Virus record (IMG/VR): IMGVR_UViG_3300020472_000071
Location: 1 to 38,393 of that record
Source: a virus
Direction: 5' to 3' (one strand)
Length of the DNA stretch: 38,393 nucleotides
The position numbers and the translations under genes were made by a program. Of the stretch, positions 18,410-35,700 are shown one piece after another. Below the pieces are notes generated by a model. It was not told the DNA's origin. It did not search any database and worked only from the letters and a program-made list of their open reading frames with translations. Positions within the stretch are counted from its first letter, which is position 1; each line of letters starts with the position of its first letter.

Positions 18410-18540
18410 TCGTTGTCAATGCTGAGAACATAAGACTGTTTGCAATATTAGTATTGGGTATCATATGGTTCTACCTGTTAGTAGAAACACTTGCAATGAA
18501 ATCTGTGGAAAAAGATAATGATCGCAAAAATAATAGATAA
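18406..18540 (+). CDS. 44-residue single-span membrane protein
   Basis: Short N-terminus, one hydrophobic helix (L-F-A-I-L-V-L-G-I-I-W-F-Y-L-L-V), then a charged tail (K-D-N-D-R-K-N-N-R). ATGA overlap with the oxygenase before it and a 23-base overlap with the oxygenase after it. Confidence 0.55.
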   Translation: MIVVNAENIRLFAILVLGIIWFYLLVETLAMKSVEKDNDRKNNR

Positions 18541-19918: not shown

Positions 19919-20481
19919 CAACTGATCAATGGTTTCCCCTTCCATTATATCAATACACATGTGAATCAATTAGAGAGAGAAAAGATGCTGAATCTGATCT
20001 TAAACTAAGTGAATTTGAGCATAGAACTGGTTGGAGTAAAGATACACATCGATTAACACCAAATCCATTTGGGTCGAACGTGTTAGAACATAGCCCCAAC
20101 ATGTTAAACTTCATAAAAAAACATGTTTATCAGTACTTGACAGACATTGGTATTGATGAAGCACCCTATCGTATGGAGAATGCATGGTTCACGTCAACAC
20201 AAAATGGACAGTATGCACACTTGCACAGTCATGGTGGTGCTGATATCAGTGGCGTGTATTATGTAAGTACCAACTCTAAGGATGGTAATATTTACTTTCA
20301 TAATCCACAATATGTGATGGAAAGTAATTTCATGATCGCTCATTTGAATATGGCAAGACAAATCACACCTAAGAAAGGTATGATAGTATTATGGCCAAGT
20401 TTCTTGATGCATGGTACACGTGTAAATGAAACAGATCATAATAGAATATCATTATCATTTAATTTAATATTCAACAGATGA
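19915..20481 (+). CDS. Putative 2OG-Fe(II) oxygenase (TIGR02466-like)
   Basis: 188 residues. W-F-P-L-P-L-Y at the N-terminus, then A-H-L-H-S-H-G-G-A-D-I-S-G-V-Y-Y-V (residues 101-117), D-G-N-I-Y-F-H-N-P, W-P-S-F-L-M-H-G-T (H166) and N-R-I-S-L-S-F-N (R177). This is the hallmark set of the putative 2OG-Fe(II) oxygenase family common in cyanophages. H104/H106, H166 and R177 are candidate iron and cosubstrate ligands. The biochemical role of the family is unproven. Linked by four-base overlaps to the genes on both sides. Confidence 0.9.
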   Translation: MTTDQWFPLPLYQYTCESIRERKDAESDLKLSEFEHRTGWSKDTHRLTPNPFGSNVLEHSPNMLNFIKKHVYQYLTDIGIDEAPYRMENAWFTSTQNGQYAHLHSHGGADISGVYYVSTNSKDGNIYFHNPQYVMESNFMIAHLNMARQITPKKGMIVLWPSFLMHGTRVNETDHNRISLSFNLIFNR

Positions 20482-20816
20482 AACTCACCATCCCCCTAAG
20501 CAATCAACAATTAACAACACTCATTGAATTAGTTGATGCAGAACAAGTACATGAAGTAACTGATGAGAACAATGAGTATTATAATGAATTGAGACGTACA
20601 CTAATCAACCTCAAAGAGTTTTCCCCAGAAGATGTGGAAAACTGTATTACTGATGGTAATGACTACAGAGATTGTGTTGATTATATGGTACAAACTATGA
20701 ATAGTAGTGAGTATGCATCAAGACATGAATACACACCAAGTTTTGAATTATCAGCACAAGATGTAGTTGATCAACACACACCTATGCCACCAGGTTATCC
20801 AAATGAATCTACATGA
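20478..20816 (+). CDS. Acidic unknown protein
   Basis: 112 residues, acidic, with an N-terminal helical part (L-S-N-Q-Q-L-T-T-L-I-E-L-V-D-A) and a Pro-rich tail. No domain recognised. It contains a DnaA-box-like pair at 20619-20641, but this falls on the codons for F-S-P-E-D-V-E-N and may be coincidental. Confidence 0.6.
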   Translation: MKLTIPLSNQQLTTLIELVDAEQVHEVTDENNEYYNELRRTLINLKEFSPEDVENCITDGNDYRDCVDYMVQTMNSSEYASRHEYTPSFELSAQDVVDQHTPMPPGYPNEST

Positions 20817-20997
20817 TAACAAACCCACATGGAAGATTGATCCAAGTGAATACATGCAAGATGGATGGGATCGTGGCGGTGAAGTACGTTACAAGAGAGG
20901 AAGTAGGCATAATAAGATAGGTCTCACTATAATGTGGGTCTACTACATATTCTTTATATTCATGGTCATTAGACTAATCGTTGTATTAAACACATGA
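20803..20997 (+). CDS. Small membrane protein with C-terminal helix
   Basis: 64 residues from ATG 20803; a longer frame begins at 20767 but would overlap the previous gene by 50 bases. Charged N-terminus (D-G-W-D-R-G-G-E-V-R-Y-K-R), then one membrane helix (I-M-W-V-Y-Y-I-F-F-I-F-M-V-I). The basic residues before the helix predict a cytoplasmic N-terminus. Confidence 0.6.
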   Translation: MNLHDNKPTWKIDPSEYMQDGWDRGGEVRYKRGSRHNKIGLTIMWVYYIFFIFMVIRLIVVLNT

Positions 20998-21089
20998 TTG
21001 TAATAACAACACTGTTCCCATTCTTATTTGTAATACTGTTAGTGTCAGGTATGCATATGTTATGGCCTCTACCATATAGAAAACCATGA
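20994..21089 (+). CDS. 31-residue membrane peptide
   Basis: M-I-V-I-T-T-L-F-P-F-L-F-V-I-L-L-V-S-G, a single hydrophobic helix, then W-P-L-P-Y-R-K-P. Coupled on both sides by ATGA overlaps. Similar in layout to the peptides at 17524 and 18406. Confidence 0.5.
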   Translation: MIVITTLFPFLFVILLVSGMHMLWPLPYRKP

Positions 21090-21277
21090 CAATGAATAAC
21101 CAAACTAAACTATTATTCATAGCAGAACACATATTACATGTAGAAGATTTAATACAATCTAATAGTGATGAATGTATACTACAATCATATCTAAATGACA
21201 TTAAATCTATTGTAAAACGACAGTATGCAGTCTATGAACAGTCTAGAGACAATCTACCTGGATTGGGGTTGGACTGA
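21086..21277 (+). CDS. 63-residue helical unknown protein
   Basis: Soluble, helical (L-L-F-I-A-E-H-I-L-H-V-E-D-L-I). Last gene of the chain of overlapping genes; the 381-base noncoding region follows. Confidence 0.55.
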   Translation: MTMNNQTKLLFIAEHILHVEDLIQSNSDECILQSYLNDIKSIVKRQYAVYEQSRDNLPGLGLD

Positions 21278-21304
21278 TGACACTCCGCACACTGGTACAA
21301 CAGA

Positions 21305-21338
21305 GTTTTCCACAGTTTTTAGAGGTGTTGTGGAAAAC
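21305..21338. repeat. Inverted repeat of two DnaA-box-like sites
   Basis: GTTTTCCACA at 21305-21314 and its exact complement TGTGGAAAAC at 21329-21338, loop 14. Followed by TTTTAAAATACATT, so it might also act as a terminator for the preceding operon. Confidence 0.7.
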
Positions 21339-21420
21339 TTTTAAAATACATTAAAAAATATATGTAAGGTGCTCTAGAGATGTCGTCTTAGGCTGCGCCT
21401 GAGCGTTTGTCAAGTCAACG

Positions 21421-21444
21421 TGTGCCAGTACTCAAAGTGGCACA
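21421..21444. repeat. Inverted repeat TGTGCCA / TGGCACA
   Basis: Perfect 7-base arms with a 10-base loop, 31 bases upstream of the -10 element at 21475. Just downstream is a second, longer repeat pair: 21451-21470 is inverted, 17 of 20 bases, at 21615-21634. Confidence 0.6.
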
Positions 21445-21474
21445 AAACCCCTCGAAAAGACTCGAAAGACATTG

Positions 21475-21480
21475 TATAAT
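21475..21480 (+). promoter_or_regulatory. Promoter -10 element
   Basis: TATAAT with no convincing -35 (TCGAAA at 17 bases spacing). Expected start about 21487, giving the gene at 21659 an unusually long leader of about 170 bases that contains the third DnaA-like box. Confidence 0.5.
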
Positions 21481-21522
21481 TAGAAGGTAATCGGGACAAA
21501 CGCACTTTTATGACTTTTTGAG

Positions 21523-21544
21523 TTTTTCACAACCCTGTGGAAAA
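21523..21544. repeat. Second inverted pair of DnaA-box-like sites
   Basis: TTTTTCACA (one mismatch to TTTTCCACA) at 21523-21531 and exact TGTGGAAAA at 21536-21544, four bases apart. It repeats the arrangement at 21305. Confidence 0.55.
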
Positions 21545-21658
21545 CAAAAAGACGAGAAAATGACTTTTTTGACTTTTTAAGAAGTTTAAGAAAGCTATTT
21601 TTTGATATTTTGCGTTTTTTCGAGTATTTTCGAGTTAACCTTTAACTACAACACTAAA

Positions 21659-21907
21659 ATGTCAACTATTTACGACCAATTCACCTCTTCTGCTGTTAAA
21701 TCAGTCGAAACACTTGAAAATGAAGTGAAAATAGTATATAATAGTAATATTAACAAAGAATATACATTTAACTGTGAAGATGTATTAGAATTCACTAATA
21801 AACTATGTGAAGTATTAACTGCACATGAGTTATTACTTAGTGATGGAAGTGTGGGACGATTTGTTAACAATCAGATCAAATCTGGTGTGTTAGTTGAATC
21901 TAAATAA
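21659..21907 (+). CDS. Small acidic unknown protein
   Basis: 82 residues from ATG 21659 (M-S-T-I-Y-D-Q-F-T-S-S-A); the frame can be extended to 21602 but the added residues are AT-driven and hydrophobic. Contains N-K-E-Y-T-F-N-C-E-D-V-L-E-F. No family recognised. First gene of the early-type array. Confidence 0.65.
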   Translation: MSTIYDQFTSSAVKSVETLENEVKIVYNSNINKEYTFNCEDVLEFTNKLCEVLTAHELLLSDGSVGRFVNNQIKSGVLVESK

Positions 21908-21927
21908 TACGTCACTAACTAACAACA

Positions 21928-22101
21928 ATGGCAAGAAACAGTAAGCATAACAAATCATCCAAACTTAAGGAACAATTTGTTAATGACTTCGATGATTACG
22001 GTTTAAATGTAAAGAATGTCAGGAGGATTAAGAAAAAGAAAGTGACTAAGTTCAAGAATAACGATGATTATTACTATCATAGTGACAATCACAGTTATTA
22101 A
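21928..22101 (+). CDS. 57-residue Lys/Asn-rich basic protein
   Basis: M-A-R-N-S-K-H-N-K-S-S-K-L-K, a short acidic patch, then V-R-R-I-K-K-K-K-V-T-K-F-K and a Tyr/His tail. Strongly basic, so nucleic-acid binding is plausible. 20 bases after the previous stop, probably co-transcribed with it. Confidence 0.6.
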   Translation: MARNSKHNKSSKLKEQFVNDFDDYGLNVKNVRRIKKKKVTKFKNNDDYYYHSDNHSY

Positions 22102-22113
22102 CACATAGAGTGG

Positions 22114-22171
22114 ACAGTTGACAAACTGGACTTTTTTACAACAATCTCGTTACAATTGAAAGTTTGTCAAC
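22114..22171 (+). promoter_or_regulatory. Control region with palindrome and 11-base inverted repeat
   Basis: ACAGTT-GACA-AACTGG (22114-22129, one mismatch) overlaps GTTGACAAACT at 22117-22127, which is exactly inverted at 22161-22171. A -10-like TAGAAT at 22182-22187 follows. It probably contains the promoter of the gene at 22213, but -35 spacing is not ideal for any pair. Confidence 0.5.
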
Positions 22172-22212
22172 CCCTCTCGTGTAGAATGAAAGAGTTCAAA
22201 TGAATTTCTTTC

Positions 22213-22542
22213 ATGCCTGTTTCAACTGCTGCAACACCTGCCAAGACTGCAACCCCTCGTAAGAGACGCACTCGTAAGGCAACACCAGCAGCAAAACCTC
22301 AGACAGTCGTCAAGACAGTTAAGGTTAAGAAACCAGTAGCAGCAAAACCAGTTGCTAAAGTGTCCCGTCCTTCAGATTCAAGACTCATCAGTTTTGATCG
22401 CTACGTCAAGGACTTCAACCAAAGATGGGCAATCCATCAGTGGGAGGTCAACGAACTAGTCAAGGACATTTCACAAGGTGTATCATTTGTTACACCGTAC
22501 CACGCTGAACTAGTTAAAACAGTTAAGCAGTGGACAGTTTAA
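22213..22542 (+). CDS. Histone H1-like basic protein
   Basis: 109 residues. Residues 1-55 form a Lys/Ala/Pro/Thr-rich tail with repeated P-A-K, P-R-K-R-R-T-R-K and K-P-V-A motifs, like histone H1 tails and bacterial H1-like proteins. Residues 56-109 look folded (F-D-R-Y-V-K-D-F-N-Q-R-W-A-I-H-Q-W-E-V-N-E-L). Likely to bind DNA or RNA non-specifically; whether it condenses phage or host DNA is unknown. A terminator follows directly. Confidence 0.6.
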   Translation: MPVSTAATPAKTATPRKRRTRKATPAAKPQTVVKTVKVKKPVAAKPVAKVSRPSDSRLISFDRYVKDFNQRWAIHQWEVNELVKDISQGVSFVTPYHAELVKTVKQWTV

Positions 22543-22554
22543 CAAGTTACACAC

Positions 22555-22579
22555 AAGCACCCTACGGGGTGCTTTTTTT
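22555..22579 (+). terminator. Intrinsic terminator
   Basis: AAGCACCC, loop TACG, GGGTGCTT, then a run of T to 22579. Eight-base stem with a stable UNCG loop. Confidence 0.9.
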
Positions 22580-22584
22580 GTGCC

Positions 22585-22590
22585 TATAAT
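22585..22590 (+). promoter_or_regulatory. Promoter -10 element after terminator
   Basis: TATAAT six bases after the terminator T-run, no clear -35. Expected start about 22597, 20 bases before ATG 22617. Confidence 0.6.
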
Positions 22591-22616
22591 GGGCAAGTAC
22601 ACAACGCTATGACCTC

Positions 22617-22739
22617 ATGCGTCTCTTAAAATTCAAAGGACAGTGGCGAGTTGTCTATCATCAGTTTTCCACAGGTCGTCTTGATCGTTCCCATATGGAG
22701 AATGTAATCGAAGGACCAGCAGCAACTGACCTAGTGTAG
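22617..22739 (+). CDS. 40-residue unknown protein
   Basis: M-R-L-L-K-F-K-G-Q-W-R-V-V-Y-H-Q-F, basic N-terminal half. Isolated between its own -10 element and a terminator, which supports it despite the size. Contains one exact TTTTCCACA at 22665-22673, on codons for F-S-T. Confidence 0.55.
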   Translation: MRLLKFKGQWRVVYHQFSTGRLDRSHMENVIEGPAATDLV

Positions 22740-27567: not shown

Positions 27568-27966
27568 GTGGCAACCAAATTTACGCAATCCTATAAGGAT
27601 ATATCTTTAGCTTTTAAGAAACATCCTGTAACTGACGATTTAGTAGTTACAAAGGATGGTGCTGCTATTAAGCAAGCAATAACAACACTTTTATTAACTG
27701 ATATTGGCGAAAGGCTGTTTCAACCCTCATTGGGTAGCAGTCTTCGCCAATTTTTGTTTGAACCGTTAGATTATGGTACTGCTTCTCTGATTAAAGGAGC
27801 GATTAAACAATGTCTTGGTAGATTTGAACCTAGAATTAGTATTACCAGCATAAATTGCGATCCAAATAGATCAGAAGATGGATTTGATGTTGAAATGACT
27901 TATAAAATAGTGGGAACTGATCGACCCCCAGTCACAGTAGACCTCTTTCTGAACCGTACACGATAA
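27568..27966 (+). CDS. 25: Baseplate wedge protein gp25
   Basis: 132 residues, the normal size of gp25. A-I-K-Q-A-I-T-T-L-L-L-T-D-I-G-E-R-L-F-Q-P followed by G-S-S-L-R-Q-F-L-F-E-P is the signature of the GPW/gp25 family, which joins the baseplate wedge to the tail sheath. The start is GTG (M-A-T-K-F-T-Q-S-Y-K-D); no earlier in-frame start fits. Its stop overlaps gene 6 by one base, the same order as in other T4-like phages. Confidence 0.95.
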   Translation: MATKFTQSYKDISLAFKKHPVTDDLVVTKDGAAIKQAITTLLLTDIGERLFQPSLGSSLRQFLFEPLDYGTASLIKGAIKQCLGRFEPRISITSINCDPNRSEDGFDVEMTYKIVGTDRPPVTVDLFLNRTR

Positions 27967-29771
27967 TGCCTTACACACAACTTAACAGTTTAGATTTTAC
28001 TGATATAAAATCCACTCTCAGAGAATATTTGAGAGCAGAATCAGATTTTACTGACTATGACTTCGAAGGATCTACTCTGAGTCAACTATTAGACGTACTT
28101 GCTTATAATACGTACTACACAGCGTTCAATACCAATATGGTAGTGAATGAACTGTTCTTGGATTCAGCGTCTCTCAGGGACAATGTAGTGTCTTTAGCGA
28201 AGCAACTAGGTTACAGTCCGAAGTCTGTTACTGCTTCAAAGGCGAATATCAGTTTCAATGTATCAATTCCTAATAATGCACCTGAGTTTGTTATCCTGAA
28301 GGAAGGCACAGGATTTCTAACCAATTATGACGAGACTACATACCAGTTTGTTGCTACAAAAGACTTTCGTGCAGAAGTAGCTAACAACGTTGCAGTTTTC
28401 ACTAATATTGAAGTAGTAGAAGGAAATTTAGTTACCACTAATACCACATTTCAGAGTGGGATCAAAGGACAGAGGTTCAGGATTGAAAACAGTGGTGCAG
28501 ATATGAATACTTTGACCGTGAGGGTATTTCAATCTGCCAATAGTAGTATTTTTGAAGAGTTCAGGGTAGCGGATAATATTTTAGATCCTAGTGTTGATGA
28601 AAACGCTCCAGTTTTCTTTGTGAATGAAATTGAAGATGAAAACTATGAGATTGTCTTTGGTGACGGTGTTCTAGGTAAGAAACTGGATAATGGTAATGTC
28701 GTTCAAATGTCATATGTGGTAACACATGGCAAAGAAGTCAATGGTGCCAAGACATTTACGTTTGGTGGTGTATTGAGTGATGGTATTACGACTTTAACAG
28801 TTCCATATCAGGTTCAATCTATTTCTACAGTAGAGAAAGCGTATGGTGGTGAGGATATTGAGAGTGTTGCTAAGATTAAGTATCTTGCACCTAAATTCTT
28901 CTCTTCTCAGAATAGGGCAGTCACCAGTTCTGACTATGAAGTGATTGTACGTAATGTATATCCTGCTATTAGTGATATTATTGTATTTGGTGGCGAGGAG
29001 CAAGTTCCACCTGACTATGGTAAGGTGTTTGTCTCTATTAAACCATCTGATGCATCATTCCTTTCCGCATATACTAAAGGTACGATTGCCAAAGACCTCA
29101 AGAAGTATTCTGTAGGATCTGTAAGACCTGTATTAATAGATCCATCTATCCTTTATGTTGAAATGGATTCAAGTATCTATTTTGATGGTACTAAGACAGA
29201 GTTACTTCCGCAACAAGTAGCATCTAATGCTGCACAAGCAATAACAGAATATTTGAAGACATCTCAGACAGAGAAGTTCAATGGTAAGTTCAGATATTCG
29301 AAATTCATTAGTGTCATTGATGATTCAGATAGAGCGATTCGTTCTAACCTAACCTCAATCACACTAAGGAAAGATTTCTATGCACAGTTGAATTCAACTA
29401 CATTTTATGAGGTATGTTACCAAAATGCATTTGATGTTGATTGTGATAATCCCGTTGTATCATCAACAGGTTTCATAACTTTAGAATATCCAAACTATAC
29501 CACGTATCTAGAGGATAGATCGGGTAAAATAGTGCTATATAGACTAGATTCAGTGTCAGGCGATAAGATTGTTTTAAATGACTCTTTGGGTGATATTGAT
29601 TATGCTCATGGTGAGATCAAGTTATATGATCTAACTATCATTCAAGGAAGTTTTTCTGATAATCGTATTGAACTGCGTGTAAAACCTGCATCTAATGATG
29701 TCACTGTACTTAGAGAAGTATATCTTGACGTAGATGTAGCAAAGAGTAAATTTACAGCAACTAAAGAGTAG
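27966..29771 (+). CDS. 6: Baseplate wedge protein gp6
   Basis: 601 residues, similar to T4 gp6. The N-terminal L-N-S-L-D-F-T-D-I-K-S-T-L-R-E-Y-L, L-L-D-V-L-A-Y-N-T-Y-Y and E-L-F-L-D-S-A-S-L-R-D-N-V-V are typical of gp6 in T4-like phages; the centre has the baseplate-J fold pattern (E-N-Y-E-I-V-F-G-D-G-V-L-G). It forms the dimeric core of each wedge that changes shape when the sheath contracts. Flanked by gene 25 and the giant protein with one-base overlaps. Confidence 0.95.
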   Translation: MPYTQLNSLDFTDIKSTLREYLRAESDFTDYDFEGSTLSQLLDVLAYNTYYTAFNTNMVVNELFLDSASLRDNVVSLAKQLGYSPKSVTASKANISFNVSIPNNAPEFVILKEGTGFLTNYDETTYQFVATKDFRAEVANNVAVFTNIEVVEGNLVTTNTTFQSGIKGQRFRIENSGADMNTLTVRVFQSANSSIFEEFRVADNILDPSVDENAPVFFVNEIEDENYEIVFGDGVLGKKLDNGNVVQMSYVVTHGKEVNGAKTFTFGGVLSDGITTLTVPYQVQSISTVEKAYGGEDIESVAKIKYLAPKFFSSQNRAVTSSDYEVIVRNVYPAISDIIVFGGEEQVPPDYGKVFVSIKPSDASFLSAYTKGTIAKDLKKYSVGSVRPVLIDPSILYVEMDSSIYFDGTKTELLPQQVASNAAQAITEYLKTSQTEKFNGKFRYSKFISVIDDSDRAIRSNLTSITLRKDFYAQLNSTTFYEVCYQNAFDVDCDNPVVSSTGFITLEYPNYTTYLEDRSGKIVLYRLDSVSGDKIVLNDSLGDIDYAHGEIKLYDLTIIQGSFSDNRIELRVKPASNDVTVLREVYLDVDVAKSKFTATKE

Positions 29772-32700: not shown

Positions 32701-35700
32701 AAATACAGTTAAAGTTAAAGTAACAAGTGGAGATTACAATGTTACTGATGACTATTTCATTAGAAGTAGTAATTTGATTGATACTGTTGGTTCTAAGTTG
32801 ATTAGTGTAACATCTTTAAGTTCTGGGTTGAATGTATTCACTATCAACAACAATACAGCGATCTTAAAGACTACTAGTAGTCATGGTGTTGGTATTGGTG
32901 ATGATATCGATGTTGACATTAATCCTGATGATAGTCTTACTACAACTACACAGTATGTCAGAAGCAGGATATATCAGGAAGTAACTTTCCAGTCACCTGT
33001 TGCTTCTACAGCAATAAATGATACAGGTATTGGTAGAACTACTATTCTAAATGGTGGTGAAGATTATACTGCTGGTACATATACTGATATTGCTCTTAAG
33101 GGTGGAACTGGAACTGATGCAACAGCAGACTTCGTTGTTGATCCTTCTGGTAGTGTAATAAATGTTACATTAAAGAATAAAGGTACTGGGTATCAAAAAT
33201 TTGAGATTCTTACAGTTGGTGACAGTGATTTGTCTAAGACTGATAGTAGTACACCAGTACTACAGTTAGAGATAGATCATATCGGTTTAGGACTCACTGA
33301 GACTAAGGTTAATGTAGATAGTGCTATAGGTTTCACTAAAGATGATTATATTCAGATTGATGATGAAATTATAAAAGTTATTAATAAGACTGGTAATGTA
33401 CTAACTGTAACTAGAGCACAAAAGGGAACAATTGCTATAGATCATTATAATGATGCAGTAGTTAAATTATATGTTCCTGGTTATACTTTAGATAGAGGTT
33501 ATAAGATTGGTGAACTTGCTGGAGATGCAGTCATACAGACATATGATCCAATTACTCAGAAAGCACAAGTTGTATGGGATTATAACTCAACGTTAACTTC
33601 AATTAATGCTGTTACTCTAAGTACTGTATTCTATGATACAAGTGATGATAAGAGACTTGTAAGAGTTGTTGAAGTCTCTGCCCCAATTGAAGTATTTGAG
33701 TTTTCCACAGATCAAATAAATTTTGTGAGAAATCCCATACTAAACATTAAGGAATTCTATAGATATAACTTTGATGTATCTCATGCCTCAATGGCTGACA
33801 GGGAGTTTGATATATCTCCTAGTATCAATTATAACATAAACACTCCAGAGAAAGTTGATTCTGGTGATATTGTTAATATTAAATTGGGATTTGGAGCAAG
33901 AGTTGCTACAAACACCTATAGTACAAAAGTACCACTAAGGTATTCTAAGTATTTCTATTTTGATAGGAATAACGTTACATCACGTGAGACAGGTTATTTG
34001 AATGTTGTACCTGATCCTCTTCAGGGTGTAAAGAAAGCATTGGCTGTAACAAGTGATTCTATTGTATATGACACTGGCGTAACTGCACCACATGACGGTT
34101 CTGGAACTGCCACATATACTTCCAAGTCTAAGTTTTCTATTGGTGCTATTGATACAATCAATGTTATTAACATCGGTGGAGAATATAAGAAACTTCCAAT
34201 CGTAGTTGGTGTTGTCCCAACAGAAACGCTGAAAGCGACTGCTACGACTGACATCTACAATGGTTCTATTAGTGGTGTAACTGTTGTTACTGCTGGATCA
34301 AATTATTCTAAACCAAAAGCAATTGTTGAAGGAAATGCATTATTAGATGTAGTATCTGATGCTGGAGTTATTACTGGTATTATTGTACTTGATGCTGGAT
34401 CTGGTTATACTGTTGCTCCAGAAGTTAGAATAGTAGAAAGTGATGTTGAGGTATATCTTTCAAGTTCTGATATAGGAGTTCCTAGAAATATTCGTATTAT
34501 TAACAATGGTGGTACTTATCACAGTGATACTACGTTGAGTTCTACTATCAGATCAAATTACGTATTTACTTTATCTAATTTTGATACTGATGCATTTAAA
34601 ATTGGTGAAACTGTAGTGCAGCATATTGGTGGTTTAGAAACTGCTAGGGGAACAGTTACATCATGGAGAAAGGGATCTAATATTTTATCTGTTAAAGATG
34701 TATCTGGTCTCTTTAGAGAAAAGTTGATTATTACTGGTCTTGCTAAAGGAAACACTGCTGTTTTGGATAGTGTTTCGTATACTGAGTTTACACCAGAGAT
34801 TAAAACATACTTTGATAATCTTGGATCATATAGTGATGATCAAGGTATAGTTAGTTCATCTAATCAAAAGATTACTGATACTTACTATTATCAAGATTAT
34901 TCATATGTTGTTAAATCTAAGACTTCAATTGATGTTTGGAGAGATTTAATTAAACAAACCACTCACCCTGCTGGTTTCCAGTTATTTGGTGAGGTTCTTA
35001 TTGAATCTGATGCACATGTCAGAATGTCACCCACTACATCTAGTGGACATTCTACTAGGATTCAATTATGGGATCCAGAGAAGAATAAGATCACTGTTGT
35101 TAGTACTAAGAAACAAATCAGTACTTCTATCATTAGGACTGAGCAACTTAAAGTAGAACAAGGGTTAGGTTCTGTATCACGTGATACATTCTCTACAGAA
35201 GAGGTCAGAGCAAAACAGATATATCTTAATTCTAATTTTACTGGTGCCTTTACTGATAAAGGAAACCTTGAAGGACAGAAGACATTTGTTATTGTAGATG
35301 AAATTGGTAATGCTGTTGCACCATATAATGCACAAGCATTGACTATTACTCTTGATGGTATTATACAAGAACCTGGTTCAGCATATGTTATCAATGGTAA
35401 TAATATTACATTCTCATCACCACCATTAGGTCCAAGAGTACATGAAGGACAGAATATAGAACAGGTTAAGTTCTATGGTAGGTGGTTTGAATTTAAGACT
35501 GCTGCATTGAATGCTAGGTATCTTAAGAAACTTAGAAATATACATCAAAGATCTGGTACTTGGATTGATGCTGCTAACTTAGTAGCAATGAATAGAGCAT
35601 ATATTCAATCAGAAACATTAGGTTGGATTAAGAATGAGTATCCAGCACTTACATGGGGTACATTAGGTCCAACATGTCATAGAGATATTGGTTTGGTAGT

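Follow-up and report, generated by a model that had tools for sequence, protein, structure and literature searches.

The DNA analysed here, referred to below as the window, is the linear IMG/VR virus record IMGVR_UViG_3300020472_000071 at its full length of 38,393 bases. It is a fragment of a T4-like cyanophage, and its relatives in GenBank are mostly phages of Synechococcus and Prochlorococcus. Fibre genes are located on the left, followed by DNA methylases, 2OG-Fe(II) oxygenases and many small ORFs, while gp25, gp6 and a very long baseplate/structural protein occupy the right part. Neither tRNAs nor Rfam matches were found in the window. The features in and around the cluster of DnaA boxes are collected in Table 1.

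Table 1. Boxes, neighbouring features and landmark genes (positions in the window)
Feature	Position	Strand	Remark
Isolated exact TTTTCCACA	18504..18512	-	directly upstream of the ORF at 18518; membership in the cluster uncertain
One-mismatch box TTTTCCCCA, left member of an inverted pair	20619..20627	+	inside ORF 20478-20816
DnaA box TTTTCCACA, exact, partner of 20619	20633..20641	-	inside ORF 20478-20816
Inverted pair 1, left box, exact TTTTCCACA	21306..21314	+	
Inverted pair 1, right box, exact TTTTCCACA	21329..21337	-	23-bp offset; adjoins the AT-rich stretch
AT-rich stretch, candidate unwinding element	21338..21363		least stable 30-bp segment ranks at the 99.9th percentile within the window
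Conserved non-coding block, about 140 bp	21349..21483	+	nhmmer
Conserved core GTAAGGTGCTCTAGAGATGTCGTCTTAGG within the block	21364..21392	+	alignment of relatives
Sigma-70-like promoter (TCGAAA, 17 nt, TATAAT)	21452..21480	+	TATAAT-like hexamer kept in relatives
A/T-rich untranslated leader, promoter to small ORF	21481..21658	+	
Inverted pair 2, left box, one-mismatch TTTTTCACA	21523..21531	+	also present in relative L279, where the offset is 12 and not 13
Inverted pair 2, right box, exact TTTTCCACA	21536..21544	-	downstream of the promoter
Small ORF behind the leader, 82 aa	21659..21907	+	DNA similarity to ACG-2014e, S-CAM4, S-RSM4, S-H9-1
DnaA box TTTTCCACA, exact	22665..22673	+	1.3 kb downstream, in short ORF 22617-22739
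Baseplate wedge genes gp25 and gp6 (landmark)	27568..29771	+	about 6 kb downstream of the box cluster

The box cluster and the conserved block

The 9-mer TTTTCCACA is present in seven exact copies, six of them in Table 1 and one at 33701 on the plus strand, against 0.65 expected and a maximum of 3 in 100 dinucleotide shuffles; its reversed pattern has no copy in the window. Among 1260 letter permutations, TTTTCCACA alone reaches at least three copies within 240 bp, or at least seven in the window. All seven copies lie where the preliminary description had placed them, five of them within about 2 kb (20633-22673), and the one-mismatch copy that it reported at 21523 is present as TTTTTCACA. The two inverted pairs that it described beside an AT-rich segment are there, and so is that segment, but a third pair had been overlooked. 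The three pairs, 20619/20633, 21306/21329 and 21523/21536, have offsets of 14, 23 and 13 bp, respectively, and two of them have a one-mismatch partner. In the relative L279, pair 1 and its flanks are nearly identical to those of the window, and pair 2 is retained with a spacer one base shorter.

Directly 3' of the boxes the order is AT-rich stretch, core and TATAAT-type promoter, and in most genomes these are followed by an A/T-rich leader and a small ORF. The block of about 140 bp is common to the window, S-PM2 (where the core reads TAAGGTGCTCTAGAGTTGTTGGCTTAGCA), Syn1, S-CAM1, P-SSM7, Syn19, ACG-2014d/e, S-RSM4, S-WAM2 and many IMG/VR contigs, as found by nhmmer. In ACG-2014e, S-CAM4, S-RSM4 and S-H9-1 the DNA similarity to the window extends into the small ORF located 3' of the element. 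With an iterated profile, a box was observed 5-120 nt upstream of the block in 56 block matches; weak matches that cover the promoter half alone should not be counted, as they are probably promoters of the ordinary kind. Further boxes, forming a second set 0.2-1 kb downstream, are often present (window, P-SSM7, ACG-2014d, Syn1, ACG-2014e and S-SZBM1).

The DNA beside the boxes is within the least stable 0.7% of 30-bp windows in nine of eleven genomes, the exceptions being P-SSM7 (92nd percentile) and Syn19 (86th percentile); since intergenic DNA is often AT-rich, this instability is support and not proof. The orientation of the boxes was compared at unselected loci, that is, in isolates and in gp6-anchored contigs. 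The box nearest to the AT-rich stretch always had one orientation in the window, S-PM2, Syn1, S-CAM1, Syn19, P-SSM7, ACG-2014d, S-SZBM1, L279, L291 and L314, but inverted pairs fix the orientation by their geometry, and therefore only the genomes with direct or single boxes (Syn1, S-CAM1, ACG-2014d, L291 and L314) are informative.

The block is present but the boxes are absent in S-RSM4, S-WAM2 and S-H9-1, which indicates that the boxes are not essential in every lineage. In these phages, repeats like ATTGA(G/T)AATCAAT fill the slot of the boxes (loci L009 of S-RSM4 and L011 of S-H9-1, and positions 53499 and 53580 of S-WAM2) and are possibly the binding site of another factor. As a separate observation, the box cluster of S-PM2 (L010:2951-3107, AJ630128 19177-19333) is overlapped by two annotated tRNAs, for Asn and Leu, and the neighbouring annotated tRNAs overlap genes. 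ARAGORN detected no tRNA in a 6.2-kb stretch of S-PM2, and the tRNA coordinates of record AJ630128 look misplaced.

Recurrence and spacing of the boxes

The recurrence of the arrangement was evaluated in 13 genomes, namely 12 complete T4-like cyanophages and the window, all oriented and rotated on gp6, and a tight pair was defined as two exact TTTTCCACA boxes no more than 40 bp apart. Eight of the 13 have tight pairs, and in all eight such a pair lies in the 9 kb that precede baseplate gene 6. Of 1260 permuted 9-mers, the runner-up places a tight pair upstream of gp6 in one genome only. The pairs are located 2 to 8 kb upstream of gp6, mostly in non-coding DNA, and some boxes are found within coding sequence or 0.3-1 kb away. 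Their offsets are 13 and 12 in S-PM2 (three boxes), 23 and 21 in P-SSM7 (the 23-bp offset being also that of pair 1 in the window), 12 and 12 in Syn1, 12 in S-CAM1, 12 and 25 in S-SZBM1, 31 in Syn19, whose element lies near 50.7 kb, and 22 and 11 in ACG-2014d. The clustering of host-type boxes described from the window alone is, then, an arrangement found again at a single map position across several genera of T4-like cyanophages. It should be noted that the eight genomes are related and do not represent independent events, and that between genera the boxes differ in number, orientation and spacing as well as in the sequence around them. When whole records of named isolates were searched, exact tight pairs were present in seven of 21 and missing from 14. 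The box is not universal among cyanophages, as TTTTCCACA was not found in Syn5 or in the first 50 kb of S-CBS4; S-CAM1, on the other side, has 12 copies per genome.

Copy number gave a different picture. Over the 13 genomes the total is unexceptional, with 79 of the 1260 permuted 9-mers as frequent, and when up to one mismatch was allowed the window had 14 copies against 14.7 expected, which is no excess. At the gp6-anchored loci 57 copies were counted against 11 for the reversed pattern, and three other sampled permutations were commoner. The genome-wide count was consequently dropped as a proof, because abundance alone is unremarkable; of the excess over random expectation foreseen earlier, the part that stands is the clustering. 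The signal is the clustering, phasing and position of the boxes, and not their plain abundance.

To describe the spacing, IMG/VR was scanned with the pattern TTTTCCACA-N0-30-TGTGGAAAA, which matched at least 120 stretches, and redundant contexts were removed. Among the matches listed, the non-redundant inverted offsets peak at 12-13, 23-25 and 33-35, and those of the 39 non-redundant direct pairs at 11-12 and 21-22. For a period of 10.5 bp, the resultant length among these listed matches is 0.91 for direct and 0.68 for inverted pairs, and the random maxima in 2000 draws were 0.60 and 0.42, respectively. ORFs resembling those of T4-like cyanophages were present in 86 of the 120 stretches listed (at least 120 in all), and one of the remaining stretches carries a ribonucleotide reductase of the cyanophage type. 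Boxes phased in this way would allow a cooperative assembly of DnaA. The scan with the reversed pattern likewise matched at least 120 stretches, and the matches listed were dominated by a single 28-nt element; for these reasons its counts are not comparable with those of the forward scan. This element, the inverted repeat ACACCTTTT-N10-AAAAGGTGT, was observed in many viral contigs, some of them from isolate genomes (reversed-pattern matches listed, L134-L213).

Host DnaA and the possible roles of the element

TTTTCCACA is known as the cyanobacterial DnaA box from DnaA-binding assays in Cyanothece and Anabaena (PMC4674748). In 30 picocyanobacterial regions upstream of dnaN (oriC) we found 21 exact copies, where permuted 9-mers have a mean of 0.05 and a maximum of 2; with up to one mismatch there were 103 copies against a permuted mean of 3.2 and maximum of 31. 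The boxes had been called cyanobacterial in type, and indeed TTTTCCACA is the dominant 9-mer of the picocyanobacterial oriC. The variant TTTTCCCCA, present in one pair of the window, is the commonest variant and the second commonest 9-mer there. The dnaA gene was found in 53 of the 61 host genomes searched, and no exact TTTTCCACA was present upstream of it. Another conserved exact pair, with its boxes 44 bp apart, was observed in Prochlorococcus genomes G002 and G004 (L555:1973-2025 and L558:2083-2146), in intergenic DNA near a DnaK-like gene and away from dnaN; it may mark another place at which DnaA binds the host chromosome.

A DnaA encoded by the phage was considered and rejected, because the DNA-binding domain DnaA_C is absent from all 17 phage records tested. 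This absence makes host DnaA the obvious ligand, and given the identity of the 9-mer we consider its binding to the boxes very probable. It was also considered that the element could be a captured fragment of host oriC, and this was rejected since the block has no nhmmer match to the host dnaN regions.

The element shows oriC-type features, namely a cluster of host boxes, adjacent AT-rich DNA and helical phasing. Taken together, phased consensus host boxes at a constant location on the map, with a promoter and unstable DNA next to them, fit an origin that involves host DnaA. We propose that T4-like cyanophages have here a conserved element acting in cis, which would bind host DnaA and whose most likely role is that of phage replication origin, a proposal to which we attach an even chance. 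The step to origin function, which is read from the anatomy of the region, is by itself also evenly balanced. The findings suggest that many T4-like cyanophages recruit, or at least bind, the replication initiator of their host. Under this model, the host DnaA present at infection would bind the consensus, helically phased boxes and, possibly aided by transcription that starts at the promoter nearby, would open the neighbouring A/T-rich DNA, where the T4-type replisome of the phage could then enter, or the transcript could serve as primer. Against an origin stand the skew result given below, the lack of exact tight pairs in two thirds of the named isolates, the box-less relatives, the dissimilarity of the block to host oriC and the phages' own replisome, since in T4-type phages the helicase is loaded by phage proteins. 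The loading route in this scheme is speculative; the gp59 loader was set aside as a correlate, as its model matched in only three of 12 cyanophages. The candidate origin of the preliminary description retains the clustered host-type boxes beside unstable DNA at a recurring position, but not the change in GC skew anticipated at the cluster: GC3 skew does not change at the element, and a mild shift starts 10 kb downstream. A skew switch may be obscured where more than one origin is in use, as it is in T4.

The boxes could instead serve transcription, with DnaA activating or repressing the conserved early promoter and its leader ORF, so that early phage expression would be coupled to the DnaA status of the host without any origin. 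In the aligned elements, about 100-150 nt separate the boxes from the sigma-70-like promoter that follows them; in the window this promoter has boxes on both of its sides, and in P-SSM7 a TATAAT directly precedes the first box. Furthermore, DnaA boxes near the lambda promoter pO have been footprinted, and DnaA stimulates origin transcription there (PMC3985674). However, the number of boxes and their distance to the promoter differ widely among genomes, some boxes are inside coding sequence or 0.3-1 kb distant, the promoter persists in the box-less relatives, and the lack of boxes upstream of host dnaA means that DnaA is not evidently autoregulatory there. We regard this explanation as unlikely, but as one to be taken seriously. 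A titration of host DnaA, in which multiplying phage genomes would soak up the protein and halt new rounds of host chromosome replication, appears quite unlikely. The phage pairs are mostly exact consensus and the host oriC boxes mostly have one mismatch, so that the phage sites may have the higher affinity, and the copies are several (seven in the window, 12 in S-CAM1); but a decoy would need copy number, and would require neither helical phasing nor one fixed site with a conserved block and AT-rich DNA next to it, and the 9-mer is not unusually abundant.

That a different protein, encoded by the phage or another host factor, shares the recognition sequence of DnaA is very unlikely in our opinion. 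There are many small phage ORFs near the element that could be invoked, but the boxes are identical to the dominant 9-mer of host oriC, a window pair also includes the second commonest one, and DnaA_C is missing from the phages. Inverted pairs could, finally, fold as RNA; yet the direct pairs, which are unable to form hairpins, are phased too, which argues for protein sites, the folding z-score is only -1.8 and no terminator-like site was scored at the boxes. The hairpin or terminator reading was rejected on the phasing of the direct pairs, and chance is opposed by the permutation test upstream of gp6 (eight genomes against one), so that both are largely excluded.

If the boxes bind the host initiator at an origin, a lytic T4-type lineage would have acquired an origin module that uses host DnaA, and the other repeat found in the box slot of S-WAM2, and similarly in S-RSM4 and S-H9-1, would make the initiator-binding part a swappable cassette; we advance this only tentatively. 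T4-like cyanophages are among the most abundant viruses of the ocean, and the use of host DnaA would tie a T4-type phage to host replication control, unlike what is known of T4 itself. As had been stated, no dependence on host DnaA is known for T4-like phages, and a review of T4 replication does not mention it. In the openly licensed literature we found no description of cyanophage DnaA boxes, of DnaA use or of replication origins in T4-like cyanophages, and neither "replication origin" nor "DnaA" is in the text of a comparative study of 26 T4-like genomes. A fixed site with recognition sequences of a known host factor makes the origin question directly answerable in cultured S-PM2, Syn1, Syn19 and P-SSM7.

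Comparison with known systems

The datA and DARS loci, DnaA-box clusters that set DnaA activity in E. coli, resemble the element in having clustered boxes outside oriC; they are chromosomal loci, and the comparison covers the presence of boxes. The dnaN-proximal oriC of cyanobacteria (S. elongatus PCC 7942, Anabaena, Cyanothece) has clusters of the same 9-mer. In contrast to it, the phage element has neither a skew switch nor a dnaN or dnaA gene annotated beside it, its block is not similar to host dnaN-upstream DNA, its boxes form closely phased pairs or triplets, and the phage has its own replisome.

Phage lambda uses its own initiator O with iterons and the host DnaB, whereas T4-like phages have their own helicase and polymerase. 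As in the element, the lambda origin region has host DnaA boxes (downstream of pO) beside a promoter, and it is a precedent for such an arrangement at an origin; in lambda, transcription and initiation are linked (PMC3985674).

In T4 itself, oriE depends on an early promoter and the role of its iterons is undefined (PMC3016281). Between 77.5 and 84.5 kb of the T4 genome there is no TTWTNCACA, and the 23 matches in T4 are scattered without forming a DnaA-box cluster. The repeats near oriE (L550:1927-2070) are a 24-nt-period array within the coding sequence of gene 5 and may therefore stem from a repetitive protein motif just as well as from iterons of an origin. A homology of the boxes with these iterons was rejected, given that their sequence is unrelated to DnaA boxes, and evenly spaced iterons of the T4 kind are absent from the element. 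Of what a transcript-primed (R-loop) start would use, the element has a promoter-like sequence and the A/T-rich leader. T4 oriE is located 1.7 kb upstream of gene 6, inside gene 5, whereas the cyanophage boxes are 2-8 kb upstream and mostly non-coding, and the intervening gene contents differ. Both have repeated short motifs, and the map neighbourhood upstream of baseplate gene 6 is suggestive.
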